From a virus: DNA of 25,999 bases. The translations under genes and the position numbers were made by a program. Location of the stretch: positions 1 through 25,999 of IMG/VR virus record IMGVR_UViG_3300047299_000180; one strand, given 5' to 3'. The notes beneath the pieces were generated by a model that saw only the letters and a program-made list of their open reading frames with translations, was not told the DNA's origin and did no database searches. Position 1 is the first letter of the stretch, and each line of letters opens with the position of its first letter. This document shows, piece by piece, positions 4,327 to 25,760 of the stretch.

Positions 4327-7179
4327 CTATGCCCCCAGCTGCTGCGCTGCAACGGTGAAACCAGAGGTTGGATCAATGACACCTGTCGTTGACCACGACT
4401 GGTGCGTGTCACCCTTTCGGATCTCCACCGCGATAGGAATCGCCGCCGCCGTCTGGATGTTGAACGACACAAAAGTGCCGCCAACAACCTGATAAATCAG
4501 GTCAGCATTCGTATCGGTGCGCTTCATCCAAACGCTGGAGCCCGCCACGATGTTGGTGATTGATGCCCCAACTACCGAGCCGTTTACATCGCTGTACCGC
4601 CCACTGATCGAACCACCACCGCCAATGACAACCGTGTAGGTCGTGGCAAACGAAGCGCCGTCGCTGCTCGTGATGTGGCGTGTTCTGTAGTTGCCGCTGG
4701 CGTCCAAGTTGTTCACAAGGTCAAGCATGCAAAAGCAGTAGACCTCCGCCGCCGTTCGCGCAGCAGTAATCGTGATGGTGCTTGTCGTGTGGTTGATCGC
4801 TACGCCAGTGACTGCACCAGACGCAGCCTCGGTGAGCGAGATCGTGGGGTCGACCACGCGGAACGGGTTCGCCTCGTCAAAGACGAAGCCGTACCAACGA
4901 GCAGCCGGAATGTATGGCTGCACAGGAAGCCCAGCGAAGTGCGCGACCCCGTTAACCCCCGGCCCTGTGGTCGCCAACGTTACGGTGACTTCAGTAGCCG
5001 CGCCGCTGTTCGTGATCGTGATGGTCTGCTCATGCCACACGTTAGCTGTATCGGTCGCCGAGGTGCTGGAGGTAACGCCGCTTGGCAAGCGCATCGTAAC
5101 TACCGGCATGGAGCCAGCACCGTAGGTCGTGTCGCGGCGCAGGTTCACCTTGAGCGTTTTCGTCTCGCCCGCTGCGATGGGCCAAACAAAGCTATGGTCT
5201 ATTAGCGTGTTTGCTGCTCTTGTTTCAAACGCCCAGCTACGTGAGCTGTTCTTCAGCGGCGTCGATACCTGCCGAGCAATGCCGCCGTTCGTCCACAGCT
5301 CGTTAATGATGGTCGCCGGGGTGCTGCGCCGCCAGCAGAACTGAAAATGCGTGTACGAGCCAATAAAGTTCCCGAAGGTGTAATTCGGCAACTGGTCTGG
5401 TAGCTGACTTGTCTTATAGAACGTGGTTCCGTTCTGATTTACAACGTAACTGAGCATCGTCCGCGAGTCTGCGATTGGCGCAAAGTCTGACTCTTGGATG
5501 ACCAGACCCGGCGCGTATTGAGTCACCCGCGAATCACCCGAGCCCGATATTCCGCCCGCGAGAGAGAAGCCTCGAATGGAGCCGGTGCAGAGGAACGACG
5601 AAAGCCCGGAAAACGCACCGGGAAGCGCAAAGCAATCAAAGTTTGATATGTCGCCAATGGGCGTTGGGTTGTTGCCGTTTACGCCCGAGTTAAAAGCGAA
5701 GATGCCATTGAGCATCGACGTGCTGTTGCGGACTGTCGTTGCATTATGGACAAGGCCCCCGCCGTTAAGGCTAACGGAGTACGTCACCAAGCCGTCGAAC
5801 AGCGCCCCCGCGCTACCAGTGAAGCTCGACCAACGAGAAGCCCCCCGGAATGAAACGGCGGTGTTTGTGACTCTGAATCGGAATCCGCCCGCCAGCGGCG
5901 TGCTGCCGATAGTCATAGCTGGCTGAAAATCCGCGCCCACCAAATCAAACGCAACGTTGTCGATCAGAACCCCATCTGCGGGGTTGTCTGTGTTGAAAAG
6001 AACGATAGAGCAGTTGGTTAGCGAGTAGTCTGTTATTGTGACGTTGCTCGTGCGGTTTATTACTCTGCACCCGATTGCCCTGGCAAACGCGGAACCCGCA
6101 GAAATCGGCACGGTCAGCGACCCTGGCGTGTACCCCGCAGCGATGGTCACGGCTTGCAGCTGGCCTACCGAAGTAGACTGAGTAGACGTAAACGCGAGCA
6201 CGAGCCGGTCGCCGACTTGCCACCCAGTTGCCTCTTCAACTTGAATCGTGGTGCCTGCCGCAGCAAGCGCAGCCGTCAGACGAGTGCGCCGCGTGCGGGA
6301 AGCCCCCGCCATCCGAATGGTGCCGTTTGCCGCCTTGGAAAATACGAACTTGTTGTCGGCCAGGGCGTTGCTGCAATTGGTTCTGATCGTCGCGGCGACT
6401 CCCTGCGGCACGCGATCTGACGCGCTGCCAATATCGAGCCGCCCGGTTGCTGCGACAGTTAGCCCGCCGCGACACGTTATGCCGCTGGACACTGTGCGCG
6501 AGTGGTAAATCGTCCCATTGATCGTGATGCCGGAGCCGGTGTCATCCCCGATGCACACCAAGCTATCAACCTCAACGCGATGCCCGCGATTGGTCAACGT
6601 CAGGCCGCTTGCCAGGGCCGCTGGTGCGCCTGGGCTTATGGTGATGCTTCCCGCGCCAGTGTTGAGAGCAATCGCGCCAATTGCGCCCGGCCCGGTCACC
6701 TCATGGTACGTTTCATGGCCCGCAAACTGAACCACCTCACCGACCACAATCGTTCCGGTGCCGGCGCTAACCGGAATGCTCGTGGCCCCGCTCGCAACTG
6801 CGCCAGATAACGTCCGGGCCGTCGCCGTACCGGGTTTGGAAATCGTCACGCTGTCGTCAACAAGATCAACGCTGATGGTCGTTGCGCTCGCGGGGATTGC
6901 GAGCACCAAACCAGGCGCGTCAATGATGATGTTGCCCGCGGTGCTTGCGGCCACCCCAGTCGCGCAGCGATACCAATTCGGATCGCCAGAAACGCGCAGC
7001 ATGCGGCCCGCCGTCACGACAGACGCGCCCGCACTCACCGGGATAGACGTTGCGCCGACAGCCACAGCGGTGCCAGTCGTTGTGCGTGAGCCAGCAAACA
7101 CTGAGCCAGGAACAACGCCCCCAGTCCAAGTCGATGTCGCGCTTGCGAGGCCGCTGCGGGCGCTGGTGATCGCAGCCAT
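4327..7179 (-). CDS. Very large beta-rich virion protein, possible tailspike or beta-helix protein
   Basis: The 950-residue product is low in charge and dominated by Gly, Ala, Ser, Thr, Val and Ile. The N-terminal 200 residues hold two similar 'ATSIPVSAG' units (about 43 and 132), which suggests repeated beta modules. The segment near 205-260 (GHRVEVDS, then repeated short strands) resembles G8 or pectate-lyase-like beta-helix entry sequences, and a right-handed beta-helix is likely for about 200-560. The C-terminal third looks like carbohydrate-binding jelly-roll modules. A tailspike or other surface-binding virion protein is an inference. The start overlaps the portal stop by one base. No catalytic residues can be named. 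Confidence 0.55.
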   Translation of the reverse strand: MAAITSARSGLASATSTWTGGVVPGSVFAGSRTTTGTAVAVGATSIPVSAGASVVTAGRMLRVSGDPNWYRCATGVAASTAGNIIIDAPGLVLAIPASATTISVDLVDDSVTISKPGTATARTLSGAVASGATSIPVSAGTGTIVVGEVVQFAGHETYHEVTGPGAIGAIALNTGAGSITISPGAPAALASGLTLTNRGHRVEVDSLVCIGDDTGSGITINGTIYHSRTVSSGITCRGGLTVAATGRLDIGSASDRVPQGVAATIRTNCSNALADNKFVFSKAANGTIRMAGASRTRRTRLTAALAAAGTTIQVEEATGWQVGDRLVLAFTSTQSTSVGQLQAVTIAAGYTPGSLTVPISAGSAFARAIGCRVINRTSNVTITDYSLTNCSIVLFNTDNPADGVLIDNVAFDLVGADFQPAMTIGSTPLAGGFRFRVTNTAVSFRGASRWSSFTGSAGALFDGLVTYSVSLNGGGLVHNATTVRNSTSMLNGIFAFNSGVNGNNPTPIGDISNFDCFALPGAFSGLSSFLCTGSIRGFSLAGGISGSGDSRVTQYAPGLVIQESDFAPIADSRTMLSYVVNQNGTTFYKTSQLPDQLPNYTFGNFIGSYTHFQFCWRRSTPATIINELWTNGGIARQVSTPLKNSSRSWAFETRAANTLIDHSFVWPIAAGETKTLKVNLRRDTTYGAGSMPVVTMRLPSGVTSSTSATDTANVWHEQTITITNSGAATEVTVTLATTGPGVNGVAHFAGLPVQPYIPAARWYGFVFDEANPFRVVDPTISLTEAASGAVTGVAINHTTSTITITAARTAAEVYCFCMLDLVNNLDASGNYRTRHITSSDGASFATTYTVVIGGGGSISGRYSDVNGSVVGASITNIVAGSSVWMKRTDTNADLIYQVVGGTFVSFNIQTAAAIPIAVEIRKGDTHQSWSTTGVIDPTSGFTVAAQQLGA

Positions 7180-9425
7180 TACAGCGCCTCAGCGTCTGAT
7201 AGCACCGTCCCCTCAATTCCGCCGTCAGGCGTGCGCTGTAGCATTACCTGCTTTACCGTCGAAACTGGCTGGCGTGCGTCTACATGCACGTGTATTTGCA
7301 AAGGCTGTGCAGCCGCAATTTTCTGCGCTTCATCACGGTGCAGCTCATGCTCTGGCGGGTCGTAGTCAATGTCTATGCGTTCATTTGGCGGGGCGTCGTC
7401 GTAATTCCGCTCGGGGTCGGCGCTGTATTCGCCCCGCATCGGGTCAGACAGAGCGGCGGGGGCCTTCCCAACCAGAGCCAAACGCTTGGTTTCGGCCTCG
7501 TATTGCTTGACCTCAAGCTCGCCGCGCTTGATCTCGACCTCTGCGTCCTTAGCGTCGCCCTCTGCACGCAACTGCTCGCACTCTTGCTGCGATTCCTGGG
7601 CCACTTGCAGCGCCTCTTGCAAAGCCTGCTGCATCTGTTGCAGCTTGGCCTGAAGCTCTGCGCTCGTTGGCTGGTCGTCCTGCGGCTTGAGGATCGCCTG
7701 AACCTCTGCCGGGGCCACAGCTGTTAGCACCTGAGTCAGCTTGTCAGCGTGCGGCACATCCATTGTTTGCGCCCACAGCGGGCCAATAACCGGCATCAGC
7801 TGCGGGTTGGCCCTCATCATCTCTGTGTAGGCCGCTTGGGCCTGCGAGCGCTGCGTGCTGAACGCCGCACCAACAACCACGCGGGCGTCATAGTGCCCAA
7901 CGCTCGGATTGATGATCAGCCCATCGCCGGACTCAGCAACAGCGCCCTCTTGCTGCGGGTCAACAGCCACCGTTGACACAGTGCTATCGATGCCCATGAT
8001 CCGCATGCGCCGCCGCGTGTCGATCAGACGCGGAATCATGCCAATCAGCAGCTTGCCCAAGTGCCCAATTGATGCGCCCGCGTGCGCTGCAAAGTGGCTC
8101 GTGCTGGCCTCGCCCTGCTGCTTGCGTGACTCGATGGCAATGCCGCTGGTCTCGTTACTCGGTGCGCCCAGGTTGGCCTGGTACATGCCCAAAGACGCCT
8201 GAATGTCCTGCAAGGCCTGCTGCGCGCCGCCCATGAGGTTCTGCAAGTTGGTGGCGAGCGGCATGCGCGTAGGCGCGGCAATTGCGCCCTGCTCGTCCAA
8301 GTCCTTGTACGGCAGATAGGAGCGCCGCTCGGTGCTGGCCTTGTCCCACAGCTTCTTGAGCTCACCATCAAGCGCCCGCTGAGGCACCAGCCACGGAGAC
8401 TTCGGCGCGTCATTCATGTACGCCCGGATCTCAGAGATCATCAGGTTGTAGCTCTGCTGCGGCTCCCTCGCCCTGCGGCCCATGCCGCAATAGCGCATGC
8501 GGCCATCAACAAAGCTCACGTACCCGTAAACCGGGATGATGCCGATGCCGCTTGCCGGGAACTCGCGCTCCTTAAGCAGCACCTCGGCACCGCTCATCAA
8601 CGACCACAGCACGCGCTTGCGCTTGTCCGTGTAGTTGCGCAAAACAGGCGGCTTTACATCTTCGCGCCCGAATCGCTCCCAATACTCAGTTTCAGTCAGC
8701 GATACCTGATCGCCGTCAGGCATGCCGACAATCAAAACATTCGTGCTGACCTCTTCCGTTCGCCAGCACTCAGCGGTCAAAATGCTCTCGCGCTCATCAT
8801 TCGAGCGCTTCTGTTCAGAGTCGCCAAAGCTGACCTTGCCAGCCTTTTCACCGAACTTGCGCTCAAACTCGCGATGTGAATATGGCGTCAGCACATAGCC
8901 AAAATTGGCGTCTGAGCCATCAATCTCCACGCTCCACGGGTCAAGAACCACCCGCAGCGGGTCGCCTTCACTTCCAATGCGCGGCTCTTGGTAATTGAGA
9001 GCCCGGTCTGTGTAATCGGGGCGCAGCGTCAAATAACCCACGCCAGCACGCGCCGCAGACATATTCGCCCGCGCATAGTGCTGCTGGGCGCGGCTCACAT
9101 GCTCAATGTGCCGGATCATCCCATCCAGGGATTCAGCCACCTTTTTGTCAGCACCAGAATCAACAGGGATTGCGTGAATAGCAGGCGGGCGCTGCTCAAA
9201 CTGGCCCGCCACATTGCTGATGTATTGCCCAAGCTGGTCATGAACCAAGCACGGCCTGACGCCGCCAGGATCACTTTCCCGCTGCCGCTTTACTTTCTCG
9301 TCCCACTGCTGCGGGTCGCTCGGGTCAGTAAACGCCAAATCCTCAGCGATTTGGTTTCGCTGGTCGCGTGAGGCGTCGATTGACTCCCGATAAAGGGCCT
9401 GGGCTTCAGCAAGCGCATCACTCAT
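7179..9425 (-). CDS. P22-type portal protein
   Basis: The 748-residue protein starts MSDALAEAQALYRESIDASR and has the helical opening, the 'RPCLVHDQLGQYISNVAGQ' region near 55-80 and the 'RAGVGYLTLRPDY' segment near 125 that are typical of the P22 portal family. A Gln/Glu-rich coiled-coil region occurs near 580-655, as expected for the helical barrel of this family. Its length is close to that of the P22 portal (725). It would form the dodecameric DNA-entry ring and dock the terminase encoded immediately upstream. The gap to terL is 45 bases and contains a short inverted repeat (GACTAT at 9444-9449, ATAGTC at 9466-9471). Confidence 0.88.
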   Translation of the reverse strand: MSDALAEAQALYRESIDASRDQRNQIAEDLAFTDPSDPQQWDEKVKRQRESDPGGVRPCLVHDQLGQYISNVAGQFEQRPPAIHAIPVDSGADKKVAESLDGMIRHIEHVSRAQQHYARANMSAARAGVGYLTLRPDYTDRALNYQEPRIGSEGDPLRVVLDPWSVEIDGSDANFGYVLTPYSHREFERKFGEKAGKVSFGDSEQKRSNDERESILTAECWRTEEVSTNVLIVGMPDGDQVSLTETEYWERFGREDVKPPVLRNYTDKRKRVLWSLMSGAEVLLKEREFPASGIGIIPVYGYVSFVDGRMRYCGMGRRAREPQQSYNLMISEIRAYMNDAPKSPWLVPQRALDGELKKLWDKASTERRSYLPYKDLDEQGAIAAPTRMPLATNLQNLMGGAQQALQDIQASLGMYQANLGAPSNETSGIAIESRKQQGEASTSHFAAHAGASIGHLGKLLIGMIPRLIDTRRRMRIMGIDSTVSTVAVDPQQEGAVAESGDGLIINPSVGHYDARVVVGAAFSTQRSQAQAAYTEMMRANPQLMPVIGPLWAQTMDVPHADKLTQVLTAVAPAEVQAILKPQDDQPTSAELQAKLQQMQQALQEALQVAQESQQECEQLRAEGDAKDAEVEIKRGELEVKQYEAETKRLALVGKAPAALSDPMRGEYSADPERNYDDAPPNERIDIDYDPPEHELHRDEAQKIAAAQPLQIHVHVDARQPVSTVKQVMLQRTPDGGIEGTVLSDAEAL

Positions 9426-9470
9426 GCGCGAATGATAGCAGACGACTATTAGTTTGTGTAGACCGATAGT

Positions 9471-10694
9471 CTAGATATATGAGCCTTGGGCGGCAGACGT
9501 TGACCAATCGATAGCGGCCTGGGGTTTTGCTGCCCGCCTTGCGCCTTCGCAGGCATATCGCAGAGAGTCGATGACGTGGTTATCTTTATCACTCAGCACA
9601 GGCAATACTGCGCCGGTCATTTCGTCCAGTTTGTAGCTGTAGGCGGTCAGCTCCTTGATCGTGTGCACGCAGCGCGGGTGCACCACAATGTCGAAGCTGC
9701 GCAGAAACTCGATACCCTCCTCCACGCTGCGAGCGCCCTTGATCGCTGGCAGCATCTTCGGGAACCCGTGGCGCTGCATGTAGCTGATCGTCTCGGGCCT
9801 GCTGCTGTCGGCAATGGTCGGCCAGCGCTCGGCGTCAGGAACCATGCGGAACAGGTCAGGCAGGAAATCGACCTCGCAGCCTATGCGATATGCCTCATGC
9901 GCCACGTACAGCGTGCGGCCAACAATCGAGCACTGCACAAGCACCGAAGGATCAACGCTGAACCCCCAATCCGCGCCCTGCCGCAAGATCCACTCAGGCG
10001 CAATGTCGAACTCTTCCACGCGCCAGTTCTTGAACACGCGGGTTTCGCTGTTTTGCCGGTACTGGCCTAGCCACACATGCGCGTACTTGTCCGGGTCGCG
10101 CCGCTTGTCGTACTCCATCTCGACCCGCAGCTCATCAGGCAGCCACGGGTTGTCGATGTAGTTCACTTGCGCGATTGCGGCTTCTGGTGGCGGATGCTCG
10201 CCGCGGAGCAATTTATCAATCGGGTCGTCAGCGCTGTCGGGGTTCCAGCCGAACCACATTTGAGAGCCTGGCTTGCGAATCGTTGGGCGCAACAGTGTCA
10301 AGCTCTTGTCGCTCGCTGCCTGCGCTTCCTCAAACCACGACCTATCGAATCCTTCCAGCGACTTGATACTGTCGCTCGTGTGGTTCTGCATGCCCTCGAA
10401 GATAGTCACGCCACCACTTATCGAAATGATGCGCCTATCCTGAACTTCAAAGTATCCGCCTGCGTTGTAGGCTGATATCTTGGCCTCAAGCAGCTTTTTC
10501 ACGCTGAACTCAAGGCTTTTCAGCGTCTCGCGCAAGCAAACAAAATCCAGCTTTTCCGCGATGCTTTCCCTTAGCCATCGCTCGCCGAAGTAGTGTGATT
10601 TGCCTGATCCACGGCCACCGTGCGCAGCCACATACCTATGCGCCCCCTCAAGTGGCAGAAACGCAGGGGCTATCTTGATGCGCAACTCAGCCAT
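9471..10694 (-). CDS. terL: Terminase large subunit (PBSX-type ATPase and nuclease)
   Basis: The 407-residue protein has all expected motor motifs. Walker A is GGRGSGKS at residues 26-33. Walker B with the catalytic Glu is in FDRSWFEEAQ (E122/E123). The RNase H-like nuclease has likely metal-binding acids at D242 (GADWGF), D296 (IADSSRP) and D376 (NHVIDSLRY). Its length is normal for this family. It cuts concatemeric DNA and pumps it through the portal. The start overlaps the end of the putative small subunit by eight bases, which implies coupled translation. Confidence 0.95.
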   Translation of the reverse strand: MAELRIKIAPAFLPLEGAHRYVAAHGGRGSGKSHYFGERWLRESIAEKLDFVCLRETLKSLEFSVKKLLEAKISAYNAGGYFEVQDRRIISISGGVTIFEGMQNHTSDSIKSLEGFDRSWFEEAQAASDKSLTLLRPTIRKPGSQMWFGWNPDSADDPIDKLLRGEHPPPEAAIAQVNYIDNPWLPDELRVEMEYDKRRDPDKYAHVWLGQYRQNSETRVFKNWRVEEFDIAPEWILRQGADWGFSVDPSVLVQCSIVGRTLYVAHEAYRIGCEVDFLPDLFRMVPDAERWPTIADSSRPETISYMQRHGFPKMLPAIKGARSVEEGIEFLRSFDIVVHPRCVHTIKELTAYSYKLDEMTGAVLPVLSDKDNHVIDSLRYACEGARRAAKPQAAIDWSTSAAQGSYI

Positions 10695-19103: not shown

Positions 19104-19357
19104 ACAACCGCCTAACGCCCAAGCAGCGAGAGCACCTAGAGCGGGTAAGGCTGCTCGGATGCTCTGTTTGTGATGCGCCCGGCCCAAGCGAGGCCCACCA
19201 CATTAAGCAGGGTCAGCAGTACACGGCAGTGGCCCTGTGTGCTGACTGCCACAGGGGCAGCGTGTTAGGCCTCCACGGGCAGCGCAGGGCTTGGGCAGTG
19301 CGCAAGATGGACGAAACGGATGCTCTTGCAAAGACCGTTGAAAGGCTGATGGCATGA
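19100..19357 (+). CDS. Ref-like HNH nuclease
   Basis: The 85-residue product (MNNRLTPKQREHLERVRLLG...) carries the metal-binding pattern C21-x2-C24, HH at 33-34, C47-x2-C50-H51 and H59. This matches the C-terminal domain of P1 Ref, a RecA-dependent HNH nuclease, and its many phage relatives. The ATG overlaps the previous stop. Next to NinB and an SSB-like protein it would form a recombination or repair module. Activity is inferred from the motif. Confidence 0.75.
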   Translation: MNNRLTPKQREHLERVRLLGCSVCDAPGPSEAHHIKQGQQYTAVALCADCHRGSVLGLHGQRRAWAVRKMDETDALAKTVERLMA

Positions 19358-19731
19358 ACCGCTACATCCTCGCACACGATCTAGCCCACACCAGGGCGCT
19401 AGATCATGTGCGCAAGGCCCCGCAAGGCTGGCATGTGCTCGTGCAAGAGCCAAAGCGCAGCGGAGCGCAGAACGCGGCGCTTCATGCGCGGCTGACCGAG
19501 ATTGCTGCGCAGCGCCAATGGGCTGGCAAGTGGCACGATGTTTTCGTATGGAAGCGCCTGATGATCGGCGCATGGTCACGGGCCACAAATCGGCACGCAG
19601 AGATGCTGCCAGCGCTGGACGGTCAAGGCTTCGAGCTTATCTGGCGCAGCAGCACAGATTTGAGCGAGCGCGAATGCGGCGAACTGTTAGAGTTCATCAA
19701 TGCGTGGGATGCAATGGAGTGTGAAGCATGA
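19354..19731 (+). CDS. ninB: NinB-family recombination protein
   Basis: The 125-residue product contains 'GWHVLVQEPKRSGAQNAALHARLTEI' (shortened), a Trp-rich centre (QWAGKWHDVFVWKRLMIGA) and the 'STDLSERECGELLEFINAW' ending that mark NinB (lambda Orf). NinB is a recombination mediator that binds single-stranded DNA and SSB. It overlaps both neighbours as ATGA. Its length is near the family norm. Confidence 0.85.
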   Translation: MNRYILAHDLAHTRALDHVRKAPQGWHVLVQEPKRSGAQNAALHARLTEIAAQRQWAGKWHDVFVWKRLMIGAWSRATNRHAEMLPALDGQGFELIWRSSTDLSERECGELLEFINAWDAMECEA

Positions 19732-20027
19732 GCACGAAAGATGATGGCGCAGAAGCGCGCAAAGAGTGGCGCGAGGCTGGAGCCTGCACGAACTGCGACA
19801 CGCCGGTAACGCTGGTGCATAACTCGGACCACCCAACATGCCGGATGGATCGAAGGCGCTATGTGGACGCTCGGTTTCCCGACCGTGGCTGGTGCTTGTT
19901 TCGATGCAAAGCCTGCCATGCCGTGATTGACAAGAACTGGGCGGCGAGTGAAGCGCCTAACGTGGTGGTAACCGGCGCCCGCGCTGAAGTTTTCGAAGCG
20001 AACCCATGCCGGAGGGCGTCCGGTTGA
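19728..20027 (+). CDS. Zinc-ribbon-like protein, C-terminus overwritten by attC
   Basis: The 99-residue product has a four-Cys ribbon: C20-x2-C23 (ACTNCDT), C37, then C56 and C60-x2-C63-like positions in 'WCLFRCKACHAVI'. The last 24 codons (from residue 76) lie inside the attC-like site at 19955-20040. At the R'' core the DNA reads GAGTGAAGC, and a TGA exists there in the next frame. The original end may therefore have been altered when a cassette joined here. The ATGA overlap with ninB shows that the start belongs to the phage operon. The function is unknown. Confidence 0.6.
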   Translation: MSTKDDGAEARKEWREAGACTNCDTPVTLVHNSDHPTCRMDRRRYVDARFPDRGWCLFRCKACHAVIDKNWAASEAPNVVVTGARAEVFEANPCRRASG

Positions 20028-20040
20028 CCTAATGTTGGGC
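19955..20040 (+). repeat. attC-like site 1
   Basis: The R'' core is GCCTAAC (19955-19961) and the R' core GTTGGGC (20034-20040). Inside, AACCGG pairs with CCGGTT (19970-19975, 20020-20025) and GCCC with GGGC (19977-19980, 20014-20017). It is longer (86 bases) and less regular than the next sites. It marks the left edge of the cassette-like array. Confidence 0.6.
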
Positions 20041-20064
20041 CGCCGCGCCCGTAGCGAGGGAATG

Positions 20065-20322
20065 ATGACAAGTCAAGAAGTGAGATGGTGCGTTGAAGAA
20101 CGCGACACCGGGATGCCGTGCGCCAGTGGCAGCGCGCCCACCGAAGAAGAAGCAAGCCGCGAAATGATGCGCTACGCCATGCAATACGGGCAGGACGGCC
20201 CGGTGCTCTACTGGATGCGTCAGAACCGCAAGACGCTGGTGAAGGGCGAGATTGCTGGCGTTTCCGTGACCATGATGCGCACGGACGGCGGCGATCTGAG
20301 AACGCTGCTGGCAGGCCACTAG
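20065..20322 (+). CDS. Cassette gene, 85-residue hypothetical protein
   Basis: The start at 20065 has GAGGG four bases away; ATGs at 20032 and 20062 are less likely. The product is soluble, with 'EEEASREMMRYAMQYGQDGP' as a helical segment and a C-terminal beta region. Its stop is two bases before attC site 2, as usual for integron cassettes. The family is not recognised. Confidence 0.65.
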   Translation: MTSQEVRWCVEERDTGMPCASGSAPTEEEASREMMRYAMQYGQDGPVLYWMRQNRKTLVKGEIAGVSVTMMRTDGGDLRTLLAGH

Positions 20323-20324
20323 CG

Positions 20325-20382
20325 GCCCAACGATCGAATTGACGCGGGGCCGTAGGCCCTCGCGTCGAATGAGGGGTTAGGC
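20325..20382 (+). repeat. attC-like site 2
   Basis: R'' GCCCAAC (20325-20331) and R' GTTAGGC (20376-20382) are 58 bases end to end. L'' TTGACGCG pairs with L' CGCGTCGAA leaving one extra G unpaired, the extrahelical base typical of attC. GGGCC-GTA-GGCCC forms the central hairpin. Confidence 0.8.
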
Positions 20383-20420
20383 GCGTGCCCCGACTCGCGC
20401 GCCACTGCATGAGGACAACC

Positions 20421-20624
20421 ATGGAACTGCAACCCCACCAACAGCGCGTTGTGGCCGAGAAGGCCGAGCTGGACGAGAAGCTGGCGAAGCTGGACGCCTT
20501 TGGCCGCACGCCGCTTTTCGCCTCGTTGCCCGCCGACGAGCAAGGGCGACTGAACCGCCAGCACTCGCTGATGGAGCAATACAGCGCCGTCCTGGGGGAG
20601 CGCATCGCGGCTTTCACGGCGTGA
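20421..20624 (+). CDS. Cassette gene, crAss001_48-related small phage protein
   Basis: From the ATG at 20421 (GAGGA upstream) the product has 67 residues: MELQPHQQRVVAEKAELDEK, then a Phe-containing core (TPLFASLP) and 'LGERIAAF'. This pattern matches small phage proteins named after crAss001 gp48. It is homologous to the protein of the next cassette (HxQRV, LDEKLxKLxxF, TPxFxxL, ExxRL, ERIxAF). The molecular role is unknown. It ends about 33 bases before attC site 3 with a perfect hairpin between (20629-20651). Confidence 0.7.
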   Translation: MELQPHQQRVVAEKAELDEKLAKLDAFGRTPLFASLPADEQGRLNRQHSLMEQYSAVLGERIAAFTA

Positions 20625-20628
20625 TGAT

Positions 20629-20651
20629 GGCGGGCCTACTGCTGGCCCGCC
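20629..20651 (+). terminator. Perfect GC hairpin after a cassette gene
   Basis: GGCGGGCC and GGCCCGCC form an 8-bp stem around TACTGCT, five bases after the stop codon. No T-run follows, so it may act as a pause or mRNA 3' end rather than an intrinsic terminator. Part of the same sequence (TGGCGGGC) recurs before the R'' sites at 21004 and 23986. Confidence 0.4.
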
Positions 20652-20657
20652 TGAAGC

Positions 20658-20714
20658 GCCTAACGATCGAATTCAGCCGCGCCGCTAGGCGTCGGCTGGA
20701 ATGAGGGGTTAGGC
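20658..20714 (+). repeat. attC-like site 3
   Basis: R'' GCCTAAC (20658-20664) and R' GTTAGGC (20708-20714), 57 bases. TTCAGCCG pairs with CGGCTGGAA with one extrahelical G; CGCC-GCTA-GGCG is the tip. It shares GATCGAATT after R'' and AATGAGGG before R' with site 2. Confidence 0.82.
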
Positions 20715-20755
20715 GCGTGCCCCGATTCACGCGCCGACGTTGAAGGACTACAGAG

Positions 20756-20998
20756 ATGGACTTTGCACCGCACGAACAGCGCGTGATTGACGAGCACCGC
20801 GACCTGACCGAGAAGCTGAACAAGCTGCGCTCGTTCTTTGACACGCCGATCTTTCGCGGCCTGGCCGAAGCTGAGCAAATGCGCCTGCGCGCACAAGCCG
20901 GGTTCATGGACGGCTATCAGGACATGCTGCGCGAGCGCATCAGCGCCTTCATGCGCGCACACGCTGAAGCGGACGGGCCTTCGGTGGTGGCGGGCTGA
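20756..20998 (+). CDS. Cassette gene, second crAss001_48-related protein
   Basis: The ATG at 20756 follows AAGGA. The product has 80 residues: MDFAPHEQRVIDEHRDLTEK, TPIFRGLAEAEQMRL and 'LRERISAFM', clearly a diverged paralogue of the protein at 20421-20624, with 13 extra C-terminal residues. Leader sequences after the R' sites of the two cassettes are also nearly identical over 33 bases. The stop is six bases before attC site 4. Confidence 0.7.
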   Translation: MDFAPHEQRVIDEHRDLTEKLNKLRSFFDTPIFRGLAEAEQMRLRAQAGFMDGYQDMLRERISAFMRAHAEADGPSVVAG

Positions 20999-21003
20999 CA
21001 AGC

Positions 21004-21077
21004 GCCTAACGTTTGAGCTGAGCCGAGAGCGCAGGCGCGCAGCGCCGTAGCGAATCGGCTCCAGCGAAGTGTTGTGC
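21004..21077 (+). repeat. attC-like site 4
   Basis: R'' GCCTAAC (21004-21010) and R' GTTGTGC (21071-21077), 74 bases. TGAGCCGA pairs with TCGGCTCCA with one extra base. R' departs from GTTRRRY by a T, but the R'' of the following cassette (GCACAAC, 22163) carries the exact complement. Confidence 0.78.
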
Positions 21078-21122
21078 CCTTATATCCGTAGCGAAGACAA
21101 ATTCTTAGAGGCGAAAGGAAAT

Positions 21123-21314
21123 ATGAAACATCTTCTCTTGGTGCTGGTTCTGCTGGTTGTTGGCTATGGCGTTTGGCACTTCGTGCCGAAAACCGAGCGC
21201 GACGAAGGCGTGAGGCTGATTTCTCGCCACGGCATCCGCCTTGGCGCACTCGTGGCTGTGGCGCTTGCGCTGGTGGCCTTTGCGTACTACGCGAGTTCAA
21301 CTCGCATTCTGTGA
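21123..21314 (+). CDS. Cassette gene, 63-residue two-span membrane protein
   Basis: The ATG at 21123 follows GGCGAAAGGAAAT. Two hydrophobic segments (MKHLLLVLVLLVVGYGVWHF and LGALVAVALALVAFAYYA) flank a charged loop (KTERDEGVRLISRHGIR). It lies seven bases before the lipoprotein gene in the same cassette, so the two may work together at the membrane. The family is not recognised. Confidence 0.65.
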   Translation: MKHLLLVLVLLVVGYGVWHFVPKTERDEGVRLISRHGIRLGALVAVALALVAFAYYASSTRIL

Positions 21315-21321
21315 GGACTAC

Positions 21322-22161
21322 ATGAACCTGATTCGCACACTTTTTCTGTTGGCTGTGGCCGCCATGCTTGGCGCTTGCAGCCAGGTCGATACCGGCAATG
21401 TCGGTGTCGAGCGCACCTTGGGCAAGGTTGGCACCGATGCGCTGCCGCCAGGCGTGTACTTCACGATGTTCAAGACCGTGGACGAGTTCACCGGCAAGGA
21501 AGTGTTGTTCTCACTGGACAACATGACGCCCAAGAGCCGCGACAACCTGACCATGCAGGACGTTGACGTTGATGTGGTCTACAAGGTTGACGGTTCTCGC
21601 GTGCCGGCGCTGTATGCCAAGTATCAGGGCGACGTGGTGCAGCACAAGCAGGTTGTGAAGGAAGGCAGCGGCGACCTAATCATCAGCCACAACCGCGTGG
21701 CGCGCGAAGCGCGCGAGGCCATTTATAAGGCGGTGGCCAGCTTCGACGCAACGACGATGCACACCAAGCGTGCAGACGTGACTGAGGCCGTGCGGCGCAC
21801 GCTACAGGCTGAGCTTGATGCCGCCGACAAGGGCGCGTTTACCGTGACCAGCGTGAACGTGCGCAACATGGTCGTGGACAAAGGCATCGAGGATGCCATT
21901 CGCCAAAAGGCGGCGACTGACCAGCGCATTGAACAGGCGCAGCGCGAGCTGGCGCTTACCAAGGCCGAGGCAGAAAAGGCCATTGCCAAGGCGGACGGCG
22001 AAGCCAAGGCAAACCGCATCTTGGCTGAGTCGATCACTCCACAGCTGATTCGGATACGTGAGATAGAGGCGCAGCGCGACGCGGCCATTGCCGTGGCGGG
22101 GAAGGCTGGCAATACGGTGCTCCTGGGCGGTGGAGCGCAACCCCTGCTGGCAGTGAAGTAG
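21322..22161 (+). CDS. Cassette gene, SPFH/band-7 lipoprotein
   Basis: The start at 21322 has GAGGA six bases upstream. The 279-residue protein has a lipoprotein signal with lipobox LGAC and lipid-bearing Cys at residue 19. A band-7/SPFH domain covers about 25-200, and a helical coiled coil of repeated 'KAEAEKAIAKADGEAKAN' type covers about 200-250. This is the layout of prohibitin/HflK-like scaffolds, but anchored as a lipoprotein and short. Phage and cassette-borne SPFH proteins may protect or remodel the envelope; this is an inference. The stop is one base before attC site 5. Confidence 0.8.
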   Translation: MNLIRTLFLLAVAAMLGACSQVDTGNVGVERTLGKVGTDALPPGVYFTMFKTVDEFTGKEVLFSLDNMTPKSRDNLTMQDVDVDVVYKVDGSRVPALYAKYQGDVVQHKQVVKEGSGDLIISHNRVAREAREAIYKAVASFDATTMHTKRADVTEAVRRTLQAELDAADKGAFTVTSVNVRNMVVDKGIEDAIRQKAATDQRIEQAQRELALTKAEAEKAIAKADGEAKANRILAESITPQLIRIREIEAQRDAAIAVAGKAGNTVLLGGGAQPLLAVK

Positions 22162-22162
22162 G

Positions 22163-22221
22163 GCACAACGCCGCAATTGAGCGGCTGCCGTAGGCAGTCC
22201 GCCTCGAATTGCTTGTTGGGC
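22163..22221 (+). repeat. attC-like site 5
   Basis: R'' GCACAAC (22163-22169) and R' GTTGGGC (22215-22221), 59 bases. TTGAGCGG pairs with the CCGCCTCGAA arm with two bulged bases; CTGCC-GTA-GGCAG is a perfect tip. It starts the last, incomplete cassette. Confidence 0.78.
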
Positions 22222-22285
22222 CTCTGGTTCCGAAGCGAGAGAAATTGAACTTGACACACACCGCAAGACATGCAGTAGACTGCGC

Positions 22286-22484
22286 TCAGGTGCTTGAAAA
22301 CACCTTGAGATCAGCGGTCAAGCCGCCCCGTCAGTGCGGCTTTGTCACGCCCGTTTTCTATGGGCGGGATGCTCGGAGCGGTAACGCCCGGGGCCTGACT
22401 GATCTCAGGTTTTCAACATCCCGCCCACCCTTTGCGCTTGAAAACGCGAGGGGTGGTCATTCAGTCTCGATCAGGAGAATGACC
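22286..22484 (+). ncRNA. C4-like antisense-RNA leader of the antirepressor operon
   Basis: The leader has hairpins at 22320-22342 (AAGCCGC/GCGGCTT), 22348-22366 (CGCCC/GGGCG) and 22455-22484. One 28-base stretch, 22399-22426, is complementary to two separate upstream segments: 22294-22314 (TTGAAAA and TGAGATCAG parts, with small bulges) and 22362-22371 (GGGCGGGATG with CATCCCGCCC). A ten-mer GCTTGAAAAC at 22292-22301 recurs at 22436-22445 and can pair with the same target. In phages P1 and P7 the C4 RNA uses two antisense segments to repress the ant operon; gene order here (leader, unknown ORF, ant) is the same. Membership of the C4 family is inferred. Confidence 0.6.
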
Positions 22485-23036
22485 ATGTTGCATGACAGCG
22501 GCACAACCGCGCCCACGGCGCACGCCACCACCAACCCGACCGACACCGCGCCCGAGCTGCGCATTGAAATCTGGCCCGACGACTGGGCACAGTACACCGG
22601 CACCGCTGCCCAGCTTCAGGCCGAAGGGCTGATTCCCGACGGCTTCGAGTGGCCGCAGGCCGCCGCCGACAAGCGCTGGGAAGCGAACGGCTTCGACTAC
22701 TGGCTGCGCCGCACCCGGCCCGATGGCCACAAGGGGCCGATGCGTTCCTGGCTGGAGGTGGACAACTGGTTCTTGCGCGTGAGCGTGACCGGCCGCGACT
22801 ACCACTGGCGCACGCGCCGGGGCCTGGAACGCAAGGCCGAAGCCCTGCGCGCCGAGTACCACCGCCACACCGCCGCAGGCGCCCGCGAGTGGGAAGCCGC
22901 ATGGCACCGCTACTGGCAGACCGTGAAAGACAAGCGCTTCCAAGCGTTCAAGGCCCTGGTGCCCGGCCTGGTGGCGCCCAAGCGTGGCCGCAAACCCAAG
23001 ACCGAAACCACCGCGCAAGGAGCCGACCATGCATGA
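22485..23036 (+). CDS. Unknown protein upstream of the antirepressor (icd/orfX position)
   Basis: The ATG at 22485 has AGGAG seven bases upstream. The nearby ATG at 22479 is too close to it. The 183-residue product has a disordered Thr/Ala-rich start, then a conserved-looking region 'LRIEIWPDDWAQYTG' and 'GLIPDGFEWPQ', and a Trp-rich basic part (FDYWLRRTRPDGHKGPM, VTGRDYHWRTRRG). The tail is Lys/Arg-rich (APKRGRKPK). It takes the position that icd or orfX has in the P1 imm operon. It may bind DNA. Its end overlaps the ant start by eight bases. Confidence 0.7.
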   Translation: MLHDSGTTAPTAHATTNPTDTAPELRIEIWPDDWAQYTGTAAQLQAEGLIPDGFEWPQAAADKRWEANGFDYWLRRTRPDGHKGPMRSWLEVDNWFLRVSVTGRDYHWRTRRGLERKAEALRAEYHRHTAAGAREWEAAWHRYWQTVKDKRFQAFKALVPGLVAPKRGRKPKTETTAQGADHA

Positions 23037-23757
23037 AATCGTCTTCGCCCTGGAAGGGCAAGCCCTGACCTCCACGGCCGCCATTGCCGACGGCACCGGC
23101 ATCCAGCACAAGAACGTCTTGGAGCTGGCCCGCACCTACGCCGACGACTTGGCCGAGTTCGGAAGGGTCGCGTTTGAAACGCAACCCTTTGAGACTGCTG
23201 GCGGCACGCAGCAGCGGGAGGTGGCGCTGCTGAACGAGCAGCAGGCAACCCTGCTCATCACCTACATGCGCAACGGCGACACGGTGCGAGCCTTCAAGAA
23301 GCGGCTGGTGTCCGCGTTCTACAAGATGGCCCAGGAACTGGCCGTGCAGCGCTTCAAGGTGCCGCAGAGCTTCCCCGAGGCGATGCGCCTGGCCGCTGAC
23401 CTGGCCGAGCAGAAGGCCCAGGTGGAGCAGCGCCTTGCTATCGCGGCGCCGAAGGCTGACGCGCTCGACCTGCTTTCGGCCAGCGACGAGGCCGTCACGT
23501 TCCGCGAAGCGGCCAAGTTGCTGAGCGTCAAGCGCGAGCAGCTCACGAACTGGCTGCATGCCAATGGCTGGGTGTACCGGCTGAACGGCCGCTGGGTGGG
23601 CTACCAGAAGCACATCGAGAACGGGCACCTCCAGTTCAAAGAGGCCCGCTACACCGATGACAAGACCGGGCAGGAATGCCGAAGCCCGTACTGCCACATC
23701 TTGCCCAAGGGCATGACCAAGCTGGCGACAGTGTTTGCCATGAAGGAAGCTGCGTGA
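23029..23757 (+). CDS. Rha/ANT-type phage antirepressor
   Basis: From the ATG at 23029 (AAGGAG upstream) the product has 242 residues. The N-terminal domain (about 1-100) has the Rha signature, with 'RTYADDLAEFGRVAFE' and 'LLNEQQATLLITYMRNGDTV' followed by 'FKKRLVSAFYKM'. A helical linker follows, and the C-terminal 120 residues ('FREAAKLLSVKREQLTNWLH' and 'NGWVYRLNGRWVGY') form the ANT/KilAC domain. Antirepressors bind or displace the prophage repressor. As the repressor at 15938 has no peptidase domain, this protein is the natural candidate for induction. Its expression should depend on the leader RNA. Confidence 0.88.
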   Translation: MHEIVFALEGQALTSTAAIADGTGIQHKNVLELARTYADDLAEFGRVAFETQPFETAGGTQQREVALLNEQQATLLITYMRNGDTVRAFKKRLVSAFYKMAQELAVQRFKVPQSFPEAMRLAADLAEQKAQVEQRLAIAAPKADALDLLSASDEAVTFREAAKLLSVKREQLTNWLHANGWVYRLNGRWVGYQKHIENGHLQFKEARYTDDKTGQECRSPYCHILPKGMTKLATVFAMKEAA

Positions 23758-23951
23758 TGGAACAGGTAGCCCGAAGAACATGCAGCAACTGCTGCTCGTA
23801 TGAGGCCGGTGAATGCTGGAACGGCCTTGGCGCGGTTGACGCTCACGGCTGGTGCGAGCACCACGAGACGCAGGCCGAGTTCGATTCCGACGTGGCGGCG
23901 ATCCGGCTGTTTCGGCAGCGCATCGGGCTACCCCCGAAGGAAGCCGCCTGA
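23757..23951 (+). CDS. 64-residue Cys/His-rich zinc-finger-like protein
   Basis: The ATG shares one base with the ant stop (TGATG). C9-x2-C12-C13 (TCSNCC), C20 and C35-x-H37-H38-like residues suggest a metal site; the C-terminal half is helical. It is the last gene of the incomplete cassette. No family is recognised. Confidence 0.62.
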   Translation: MEQVARRTCSNCCSYEAGECWNGLGAVDAHGWCEHHETQAEFDSDVAAIRLFRQRIGLPPKEAA

Positions 23952-23958
23952 TGGTGGC

Positions 23959-23992
23959 GGGCCTCACTGCCGCGAGTGGGGTGAGGCCCAAC
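23959..23992 (+). repeat. Half attC-like remnant closing the array
   Basis: The stem GGGCCTCAC/GTGAGGCCC (23959-23967, 23981-23989) leads into GCCCAAC (23986-23992). This is the R'' core predicted for a cassette that began TTGGGC at 22216. No R' core (GTTRRRY) is visible in the next 150 bases, so the site looks truncated and inactive, fixing the last cassette in place. Confidence 0.5.
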
Positions 23993-24024
23993 GTGCTTTA
24001 GACAAACTCCGCGAACTTTTGATC

Positions 24025-24408
24025 ATGCGACATCGCAAAAGCCGTCGACATCAACTCTCCGCTTTCGCCCGCTGGCGGGCGGCCGAGAGGTTCGCCGATG
24101 CCGAGCGTGAGCGGGGCGTTTTTGACCGTGATCCCGTCATTGATGGCCGCGAGCCTATACCGATGGATTTGCGCAGCGTGGGCGGGCGCAATCTGCTGCT
24201 GGAGCCGCGCGGCGGTTATCTGGCGTGGCGCTTGATCGATGTTGAGACTGGCGAGGTGATCAAGCGCGCGGCGCTCAAGACGCTTTTGCGCTGGATCGCT
24301 GACAGCCTGCCGATGCAGCGAGCACCGGGCGCGGAGTACACGACAGAGCAATTCAGCGCACGCGACGAGGCTGACGCGCAGGCGGCGCATGAGGGAATGG
24401 CGTGCTAA
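24025..24408 (+). CDS. Hypothetical protein, possibly 5'-truncated by the array
   Basis: From the ATG at 24025 the product has 127 residues, with 'FARWRAAERFADAERERGVF', 'REPIPMDLRSVGGRNLLLEP' and a helical C-terminus. It resembles small proteins encoded near integrases in Burkholderiales phages. No SD precedes this ATG. The frame stays open upstream and reads a coding-like stretch (EAQRALDKLRELLIM) that begins inside the R'' core at 23983. The original start may therefore have been lost. It overlaps the HTH gene by seven bases. Confidence 0.6.
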   Translation: MRHRKSRRHQLSAFARWRAAERFADAERERGVFDRDPVIDGREPIPMDLRSVGGRNLLLEPRGGYLAWRLIDVETGEVIKRAALKTLLRWIADSLPMQRAPGAEYTTEQFSARDEADAQAAHEGMAC

Positions 24409-24785
24409 CTGCTCGCAAGGTGGCCGACATGCTCGGGCTTGGCCTGCGCACGGTCTATGCCATCCCTGCCGACCGACTGGCTCGTCATCGGTTTGGCCGT
24501 GCTGTACGCTACGAGCCCCAGGACGTTGAGGCCTACAAAGCATCATGCCGATCTACCGTGACAAGCGCACCGGATGCTGGCGCTACGACTTTGACCGCTA
24601 CGTCAACGGCGAGCGCGTTCGCAGGCGTCAGCTTCTCCCCGCTGGGTGGACGCGCGCCGAAGCAGACGCTTTCGACCGCAAGGAAAGCGCGGCCCTGTAC
24701 GCGATTGCCACCGGCATCGCCAAGCCTCGGGCCACCATTGACGCGGCTGTCGCTTGCTACCTGCGCGAGCGAGCCTCGGAGCTAA
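24402..24785 (+). CDS. Excisionase-like HTH protein overlapping the integrase
   Basis: A GTG opens a frame of 127 codons. The first 52 (LTARKVADMLGLGLRTVYAI ... DVEAYKASC) form an HTH_17/AlpA-type winged helix like Xis. The rest overlaps the integrase start by 241 bases in another frame and is low in complexity, so only the N-terminal part is well supported. It probably assists excision and controls int. A frameshifted fusion with the integrase is possible but not shown. Confidence 0.6.
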   Translation: MLTARKVADMLGLGLRTVYAIPADRLARHRFGRAVRYEPQDVEAYKASCRSTVTSAPDAGATTLTATSTASAFAGVSFSPLGGRAPKQTLSTARKARPCTRLPPASPSLGPPLTRLSLATCASEPRS

Positions 24786-25498
24786 AGCACGGCGCGAACC
24801 TGCTGCGCGAGATAGAGGCCACGCGCCCATGGTGGGCAGGCAGGCCAATCGAAGAACTGGCCGCAGTCTGCTCAGAGTATTCCGCCGACCAGCACGGAGC
24901 CCTAAAGCCTGCCACGGTAAAAAACCGCATTGCCTACCTTCGAGCAGCCTGCCGATGGGCATGGAAGCGCCACGGGATGGGCGACAGCGACCCAGGCGCT
25001 CGGGTTGTGTCGCCCACGGTGCGCAACGCCCGAGACGTAACAGTAAGCCGTGCGCAAATGGTGCAACTTGCAAGGGCCTGCCCTCATCGAGGCGTTCGCG
25101 CCCTGATCCGCATTCTCTACTGGTCTGGAATGCGGGTAAGCGAGGCGCAGCGGGCGCGGCGCGGGCCTGGGGTGTTTGTCCTGGCAGACACAAAGAACGG
25201 CAGCCCTCGCATCGTGCCAATGCTGCCCATCATCACCAGCGCAAGCCGGGTCACCATGCCGCCTCGCAGCCAGATCGATTACTGGTGGCCCATGACACGG
25301 CGCATCTGCGGGCTTGAGAACGTGACCCTGCATGATTTGCGGCACAGCGCAGCTACCGCCATGGTCGATGCTGGAATTGACCTCGGGACAGTGGGCGCTG
25401 TGCTTGGGCACAAGAGCGCAGCCACCACCAAGCGCTACGCGCATCACGGCGTGCAGCGCTTAGCCGAAGCGCTCGCAAGCATCAAGAGGCGGGCGTAA
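24545..25498 (+). CDS. int: Tyrosine recombinase integrase
   Basis: The 317-residue product has an arm-binding start (IYRDKRTGCWRYDF), a core-binding domain at about 60-160 and a catalytic domain with the full set R197 (SGMRVSE), K217 (ADTKNG), H263 and R266 (LHDLRH), H289 (LGHK) and Y298 (RYAHH). It would catalyse insertion at a tRNA-Cys gene, the core of which lies 55 bases downstream. Length is normal for this family. It shares its 5' region with the HTH gene. Confidence 0.92.
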   Translation: MPIYRDKRTGCWRYDFDRYVNGERVRRRQLLPAGWTRAEADAFDRKESAALYAIATGIAKPRATIDAAVACYLRERASELKHGANLLREIEATRPWWAGRPIEELAAVCSEYSADQHGALKPATVKNRIAYLRAACRWAWKRHGMGDSDPGARVVSPTVRNARDVTVSRAQMVQLARACPHRGVRALIRILYWSGMRVSEAQRARRGPGVFVLADTKNGSPRIVPMLPIITSASRVTMPPRSQIDYWWPMTRRICGLENVTLHDLRHSAATAMVDAGIDLGTVGAVLGHKSAATTKRYAHHGVQRLAEALASIKRRA

Positions 25499-25547: not shown

Positions 25548-25552
25548 ATAGG

Positions 25553-25598
25553 TGGAGGCGCGACCCGGAGTCGAACCGGGCTAGACGGATTTGCAATC
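25553..25598 (-). other. attP core: 3' end of tRNA-Cys
   Basis: Read on the minus strand it runs from the GCA anticodon loop (TTGCAAA) through the variable region, the T arm (CCCGG-TTCGACT-CCGGG), the acceptor 3' strand (TCGCGCC) and TCCA. The 5' acceptor GGCGCGA and the D arm are absent on the other side. This is the 44-46 base identity segment that integrases of tRNA-targeting phages carry. Phage-like genes continue at 25761, so it looks like an unsplit attP. Confidence 0.8.
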
Positions 25599-25760
25599 GC
25601 TCTCTGCACAGGAAGCGCAGCAGTTGTTACCTAGTGCTTGGCGCGCGTCCTACGCATGATTTGCGGCGCGGCGGGCGGAATTTCCCCCACCGCCTACAAT
25701 GCCCCCCGCAGGGTTAAGCGGTCTAGGCCGTAGGGCCGGGAGTTCCTAGCCGCCCTGCGC

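Follow-up and report, generated by a model that had tools for sequence, protein, structure and literature searches.

A temperate P22-like phage with inverted-ORF cassettes, very probably of a phage-adapted integron, in its nin region

Positions 1 to 25,999 of the IMG/VR virus record IMGVR_UViG_3300047299_000180, hereafter called the window, come from a temperate phage in which a series of integron attC sites and gene cassettes lies between the gene for NinB and the gene for the phage integrase. On the evidence of the sequence, we consider it very probable that this P22-like phage, with a probably betaproteobacterial host, carries in its nin region the cassette array of a phage-adapted integron. 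The open reading frames (ORFs) of such viral cassettes are inverted relative to attC. With somewhat less assurance, we further regard it as likely that the window phage is a member, dependent on an integrase supplied in trans, of a distinct class of phage-encoded integrons, with an integrase clade, an attI and reversed-ORF cassettes of its own, by which unrelated betaproteobacterial temperate phages would exchange phage genes (methyltransferases, antirepressors and others) cassette-wise, without homology.

The five attC sites are listed below with the strand on which a covariance model, R1, recognizes them in the conventional attC orientation.

19955..20040, minus strand: attC1, 86 bp; R1 19.9 bits, E 3e-4; single-stranded DNA fold z -2.6
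20325..20382, minus strand: attC2, 58 bp; R1 50.2 bits
20658..20714, minus strand: attC3, 57 bp; R1 68.1 bits, E 1e-18
21004..21077, minus strand: attC4, 74 bp, with the deviant right core GTTGTGC; R1 44.5 bits
22163..22221, minus strand: attC5, 59 bp, with the deviant left core GCACAAC; R1 17.4 bits, E 2e-3; fold z -4.1

All five sites were found exactly where the original prediction had placed attC-like sites, and they are the top five matches of R1 in the window (filters off, both strands), the sixth-best match having an E of 0.058; the low covariance scores that would have spoken against the sites were not observed. R1 was derived from 41 attCs of bacterial, mostly betaproteobacterial, genome contigs and includes 11 base pairs; it took the place of a hand-written, fixed-arm attC finder, which missed nearly all sites, and it detects the eight attCs of two class 1 integrons absent from its training. 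Window sites 2 and 3, along with similar ones, served as the template for the pattern that gathered the training set, so that the R1 scores of these two are not wholly independent; the pattern does not fit sites 1, 4 and 5. A strict search of the 26 kb, on both strands, for R'' (RYYYAAC) followed by R' (GTTRRRY) yields sites 1-3 only, each of the other two having a single deviant core. As single-stranded DNA, sites 1, 2, 3 and 5 fold better than shuffled sequences (z -2.5 to -4.1), and site 4 weakly so (z -1.4). The R1 alignments also reveal extra unpaired bases on one arm of the hairpins, namely the arm that marks the sites as flipped with respect to the genes. Similar sites occur elsewhere: attC3 differs by one base from positions 6000-6056 of L130, a contig of a Burkholderiales metagenome-assembled genome, and a hairpin like attC1 is found in another phage (L007:11688-11773). 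A scan of the window with Rfam matched no attC model. Judged by their cores, predicted folding and covariance, all five are genuine integron attC sites.

Each unit of the array extends from the GTT of one site to the AAC of the next, and 9-10 end bases are complementary in all five units; such complementarity had been proposed for four cassettes, and the fifth unit runs from 22215 to 23992. It holds as well, as predicted, for the deviant cores GTTGTGC/GCACAAC, where the pair is GTTGTGCCC/GGGCACAAC. The units and the site at the end of the array are as follows.

20065..20322, plus strand: unit 1 ORF, 85 aa, without family match; an open frame between two attCs, with unit ends GTTGGGCCGC / GCGGCCCAAC
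20424..20624, plus strand: unit 2 ORF, a crAss001_48-like phage protein (PF21825, E 2e-19)
20756..20998, plus strand: unit 3 ORF, crAss001_48-like (PF21825, E 1e-17); the same cassette in L002, L006, L007, L008 and L130
21123..21314, plus strand: unit 4, first ORF, 63 aa, with a hydrophobic N-terminus and a weak FixQ match only
21322..22161, plus strand: unit 4, second ORF, SPFH/Band 7 protein (PF01145, E 3e-14; phrog_200, E 2e-46)
22479..23036, plus strand: unit 5, first ORF, 185 aa, without Pfam or PHROG match
23029..23757, plus strand: unit 5, second ORF, Rha/KilAC antirepressor (PF09669 and PF03374; phrog_63)
23757..23951, plus strand: unit 5, third ORF, an open frame for a small Cys-rich protein
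23986..24030, minus strand: putative attI, made up of the R box GTTGGGC (23986-23992) and the sequence next to it; the last cassette stops here with no hairpin

The last unit ends GGCCCAAC/GTGCTTTAGAC (23985-24003, the stroke marking the junction), which matches GCCCAAC/GTGTTTTAGAC at the equivalent place in L006, another phage locus, of 37.5 kb, with about ten cassettes. By this resemblance of the junction and adjoining sequence, and by its position, which is that of the conserved attI of intI-bearing phages, 23986-24030 would be an attI-like site. In the unit that adjoins it, positions 22363-22433 show a weak match to sRNA-Xcc1, a small RNA that appears in publications on integrons (31.5 bits against a gathering score of 53).

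The earlier view, in which a gene precedes the attC that belongs to it, did not survive the analysis of orientation. All five R1 matches are on the minus strand and the genes, four of them with Pfam support, are on the plus strand; the conventional arrangement, in which ORF and attC share a strand and the gene precedes its own attC, is not that of the window. The strand given by R1 was calibrated on class 1 integrons, in which attCs and genes lie on the same strand. Among clear cases, ORF and attC are on the same strand in 140 cassettes and on opposite strands in 9 in bacterial arrays, as opposed to 13 and 68, respectively, in viral arrays (Fisher p 1e-34, the cassettes of one array not being independent of each other). 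Two further observations are independent of R1. When the crAss001_48 cassette is compared among phages, the upstream hairpin is conserved (81% mean identity) and the downstream one is not (48%). Furthermore, in the related phage contig L171, as at all intI-side junctions, the last gene directly adjoins attI and no hairpin follows, and the unit added in its close relative L172 consists of a hairpin plus a gene. Each hairpin thus goes with the gene that lies downstream, so that the ORFs in these phages are inverted relative to attC. Seen from the attI side, the geometry is classical (intI, attI, attCs), but the ORFs point toward attI, in the same direction as intI and the early genes of the phage.

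Relatives have integrons that are complete. A true integron integrase is encoded in about 20 IMG/VR contigs and in one Burkholderiales prophage; nearly all of these integrases belong to a single clade, and the gene stands beside a conserved attI, an attC array and a phage integrase. The prophage is L130, in which the gene for an integron integrase comes after the array (TIGR02249, 424.6 bits, cutoff 265); we identify the element as a prophage because RecE, RecT, a phage integrase and DnaB surround the array. With the L130 IntI as the query, 13 IMG/VR contigs were retrieved at 52-59% identity, and two further intI contigs are L159 (the contig of L027) and L160 (the contig of L032). Phage hallmark genes were present in all three of the 13 contigs that were checked, with three different terminase types. 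In these elements, the segment from the last cassette to intI has the constant sequence RYYYAAC/TTAAATTC..CGACA....TGTCG, whereas everything to its left varies, and we read this constant sequence as attI. A search of IMG/VR with the constant sequence alone produced 15 contigs, 13 of which encode IntI immediately beyond it. In L253 and L256, the phage attI sequence is present with no IntI match beside it, little sequence being left in L256; L253 may be another phage without intI, like the window. In the IntI tree, L130, L159, L160 and L171-L181 form one clade (support 91/87; 99/93 for a core of 11 rows) placed among betaproteobacterial chromosomal IntIs; L182 falls outside this clade, and the long-branched L184-L188 were left out of it. 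The latter, IMG/VR contigs of about 31-44 kb, encode distant IntI-like proteins (36-38%), with one attC-like match, in L186.

The original prediction of an array without intI holds for the window, in which no integron integrase was found over the 26 kb; related phages do have intI, at the array end that adjoins the phage integrase. A linked intI is present in L130, L171-L183 and others; the window is an attC array in a phage (a cluster of attC sites lacking integron integrases, CALIN), not a complete integron. The phage integrase of the window was considered as a candidate integron integrase and rejected (TIGR02249, 42 bits against the same cutoff, with a match to the C-terminus only). Among GenBank phages, no IntI closer than IntI1 itself, at 58%, was found. 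One of them, Virus Rctr41k (L239, KX853513), encodes an IntI-like protein, annotated xerD, that is 47.6% identical to that of L171, with genes on the same strand upstream; an R1 scan of this genome found no attC, and it possibly carries an attC type outside the scope of R1.

Comparison of phages that are closely related to each other bore out the suggestion that phages gain and reshuffle genes through cassettes. L171 and L172 are 99.98% identical over the 8.5 kb left of the array and 96.5% identical over the 4.3 kb that begin with attI. Two cassettes are additional in L172, and one of these is inserted exactly between GGGGCACAAC and the attI TTAAATTC. L176 and L179 are 99.93% identical over the 4.1 kb from attI onward, and several whole cassettes differ between them, with the breakpoints at attC sites. 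Related phages gain, lose and reshuffle cassettes; genes that are always together in a fixed order were not what the comparison revealed. Because relatives carry intI, attI and reshuffled cassettes, site-specific recombination appears to be a means by which some phages acquire and exchange genes. Altogether, R1 matches with E up to 1 number 214 in 52 viral loci, and these counts are lower bounds given that R1 misses an attC-like site near intI in L181.

The cargo of these arrays includes phage genes. The protein encoded at 20756-20998 belongs to the phage family PF21825, represented in 41 phage records, and its cassette recurs with its own 5' leader in L002, L006, L007 and L008; the crAss001_48-like cassette protein was not found at close range in 84,980 bacterial and archaeal genomes. 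In the IMG/VR contigs L004 and L005, the same crAss001_48-like gene adjoins a terminase-like gene, with no attC, and it therefore occurs in two settings, in one as a regular phage gene and in the other as a cassette. The L006 cassettes include N6/N4 and C5 DNA methylases. The L006 array is located between early genes and tail genes, and in L007, as judged by eye, a NinB-like gene immediately precedes the array.

Under the mechanism that we propose, the minus strand of the window would read as attI (near 24030-23986) followed by five cassettes, each ending in attC. Because the ORFs lie on the strand opposite to attC, they point toward attI and the phage integrase, which would make co-transcription with the phage early operon possible. 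An integron integrase would act on a circular cassette, the attC of which, folded as a single strand (in the window, the plus strand), would recombine with attI; on the plus strand, the exchange would fall at RYYYAA^C, and excision followed by re-insertion would reshuffle the cassettes. In the case of the window, this integrase would be supplied in trans by the host or a co-infecting phage, or else has been lost; IntI scoring over the cutoff is encoded in 97 of 250 Burkholderiales genomes.

Several points weigh against this explanation. Besides the missing integron integrase of the window, intI was not found in L006 either, and no phage close to the window itself but differing in its cassettes was found; in IMG/VR, neither NinB nor the gene that follows the array retrieved any relatives. 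The R1 scores of sites 1 and 5 are modest, and the attI-like site of the window only loosely resembles the intI-linked attI. With respect to orientation, apart from the non-independence that affects the Fisher test, 13 of the 81 clear viral calls read as conventional, the ORF strand having been called by a simple score that is crude in GC-rich DNA. Finally, the virus contigs are metagenomic and partly incomplete.

The best surviving alternative, which we nevertheless consider improbable, is that imprecise excision or illegitimate recombination brought a piece of a host chromosomal integron into the phage, so that the cassettes are inert fossils. The window, without intI and with an attC type that is common in betaproteobacterial chromosomes, would fit such an origin, as would the IntI over the cutoff in 97 of 250 Burkholderiales genomes, and captures of this kind have been described in Vibrio phages (Qi et al. 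2023, PMC9892861). However, bacterial arrays are conventional in ORF orientation whereas the window is inverted, its cargo is phage-like (the antirepressor as well as the crAss001_48-like protein), and its array ends in an attI-like junction shared with L006. Even less plausible is the possibility that the cassettes are conventional, each gene being followed by its own attC, and that the inversion is an artefact of site symmetry. The attC cores are near-palindromic, so that orientation rests on internal asymmetry, and a minority of viral cassettes do score as conventional; yet R1 gives class 1 and chromosomal arrays their correct orientation, the last gene directly adjoins attI with no hairpin between them in L171, L172 and at all intI-side junctions, and the hairpin conserved with a gene is the upstream one. 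That a phage operon should have these hairpins as terminators or regulatory repeats, attC-like by chance, is scarcely credible: intergenic hairpins are frequent in phage early operons and sites 1 and 5 score modestly, but the specific pattern of cores, arms and complementary ends recurs in 5 of 5 units, one site matches chromosomal attCs at 68 bits, relatives link the sites to IntI and attI, and T-tract terminators were not found at the sites.

Beyond the array, the phage identity of the window rests on the following features.

7179..10694, minus strand: P22-type portal and terminase large subunit, phage hallmarks (PF16510, E 2e-128; PF04466, E 1e-27)
19354..19731, plus strand: NinB, at the left flank of the array (PF05772, E 7e-29)
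24545..25498, plus strand: phage tyrosine integrase, at the right flank of the array (phrog_1, E 1e-39)

Together with a DnaB-like helicase domain and the Rha/KilAC antirepressor, these make up the gene complement of a temperate tailed phage, with terminase, portal, integrase and regulator on one contig (PF16510, PF04466, PF05772, PF03374, PF00589). Directly 3' of the integrase gene, at 25550-25605, is the reverse complement of a tRNA 3' half that resembles tRNA-Cys (...TTGCAAATCCG...GGTTCGACTCCGGGTCGCGCCTCCAC). Because no whole tRNA was found, this partial tRNA is probably the attP core of the phage.

Phage genomes are mosaics, which are usually explained by homologous or illegitimate recombination. 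A phage-adapted integron would be a dedicated, site-specific device for swapping single genes of the early region, fitted to phage transcription by the turned cassette ORFs. If so, phage gene exchange would become directly testable, through excision, attI insertion and strand choice, and integrons would gain a natural vehicle between hosts. In addition, the orientation of ORFs relative to attC would follow the promoter rather than being dictated by how recombination works.

Integrons and CALINs in phages have been reported by Qi et al. 2023 (PMC9892861), who showed that IntI1 uses some phage attCs and treated the Vibrio phage cases as host integron captures. The phages described here resemble theirs in that attC arrays, with or without intI, occur in temperate and virulent phages with DNA methyltransferases among the cargo. 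In their Shewanella and Vibrio phages, however, the array ORFs close to intI are mostly directed away from that gene, and the present group differs in its phage-specific IntI clade, conserved phage attI, fixed place beside the phage integrase and inverted ORFs. In the open-access literature searched, with subscription papers and preprints outside the scope, no report of inverted-ORF phage integrons with an IntI clade and attI of their own was found. The sedentary chromosomal integrons of betaproteobacteria share the attC type, and the phage IntI clade is nested among theirs, but their ORFs are conventional (140 of 149 clear cases) and their arrays do not lie inside phage operons. In Treponema integrons (PMC3607928), intI and the cassette ORFs are transcribed in the same direction, as in the phage group; there, however, intI is transcribed toward attI, with the cassettes beyond, whereas in the phages intI is transcribed away from attI and the cassette ORFs are the inverted part. 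Class 1 integrons (IntI1, attI1, aadA and dfrA cassettes), the attCs of which are detected by R1 and the IntI1 of which is about 58% identical to the L171 IntI, differ in conventional cassette orientation, resistance cargo and carriage by transposons and plasmids. Phage integrons as such are known from the work of Qi et al. 2023; the inverted, phage-specific form would be a new integron variant.

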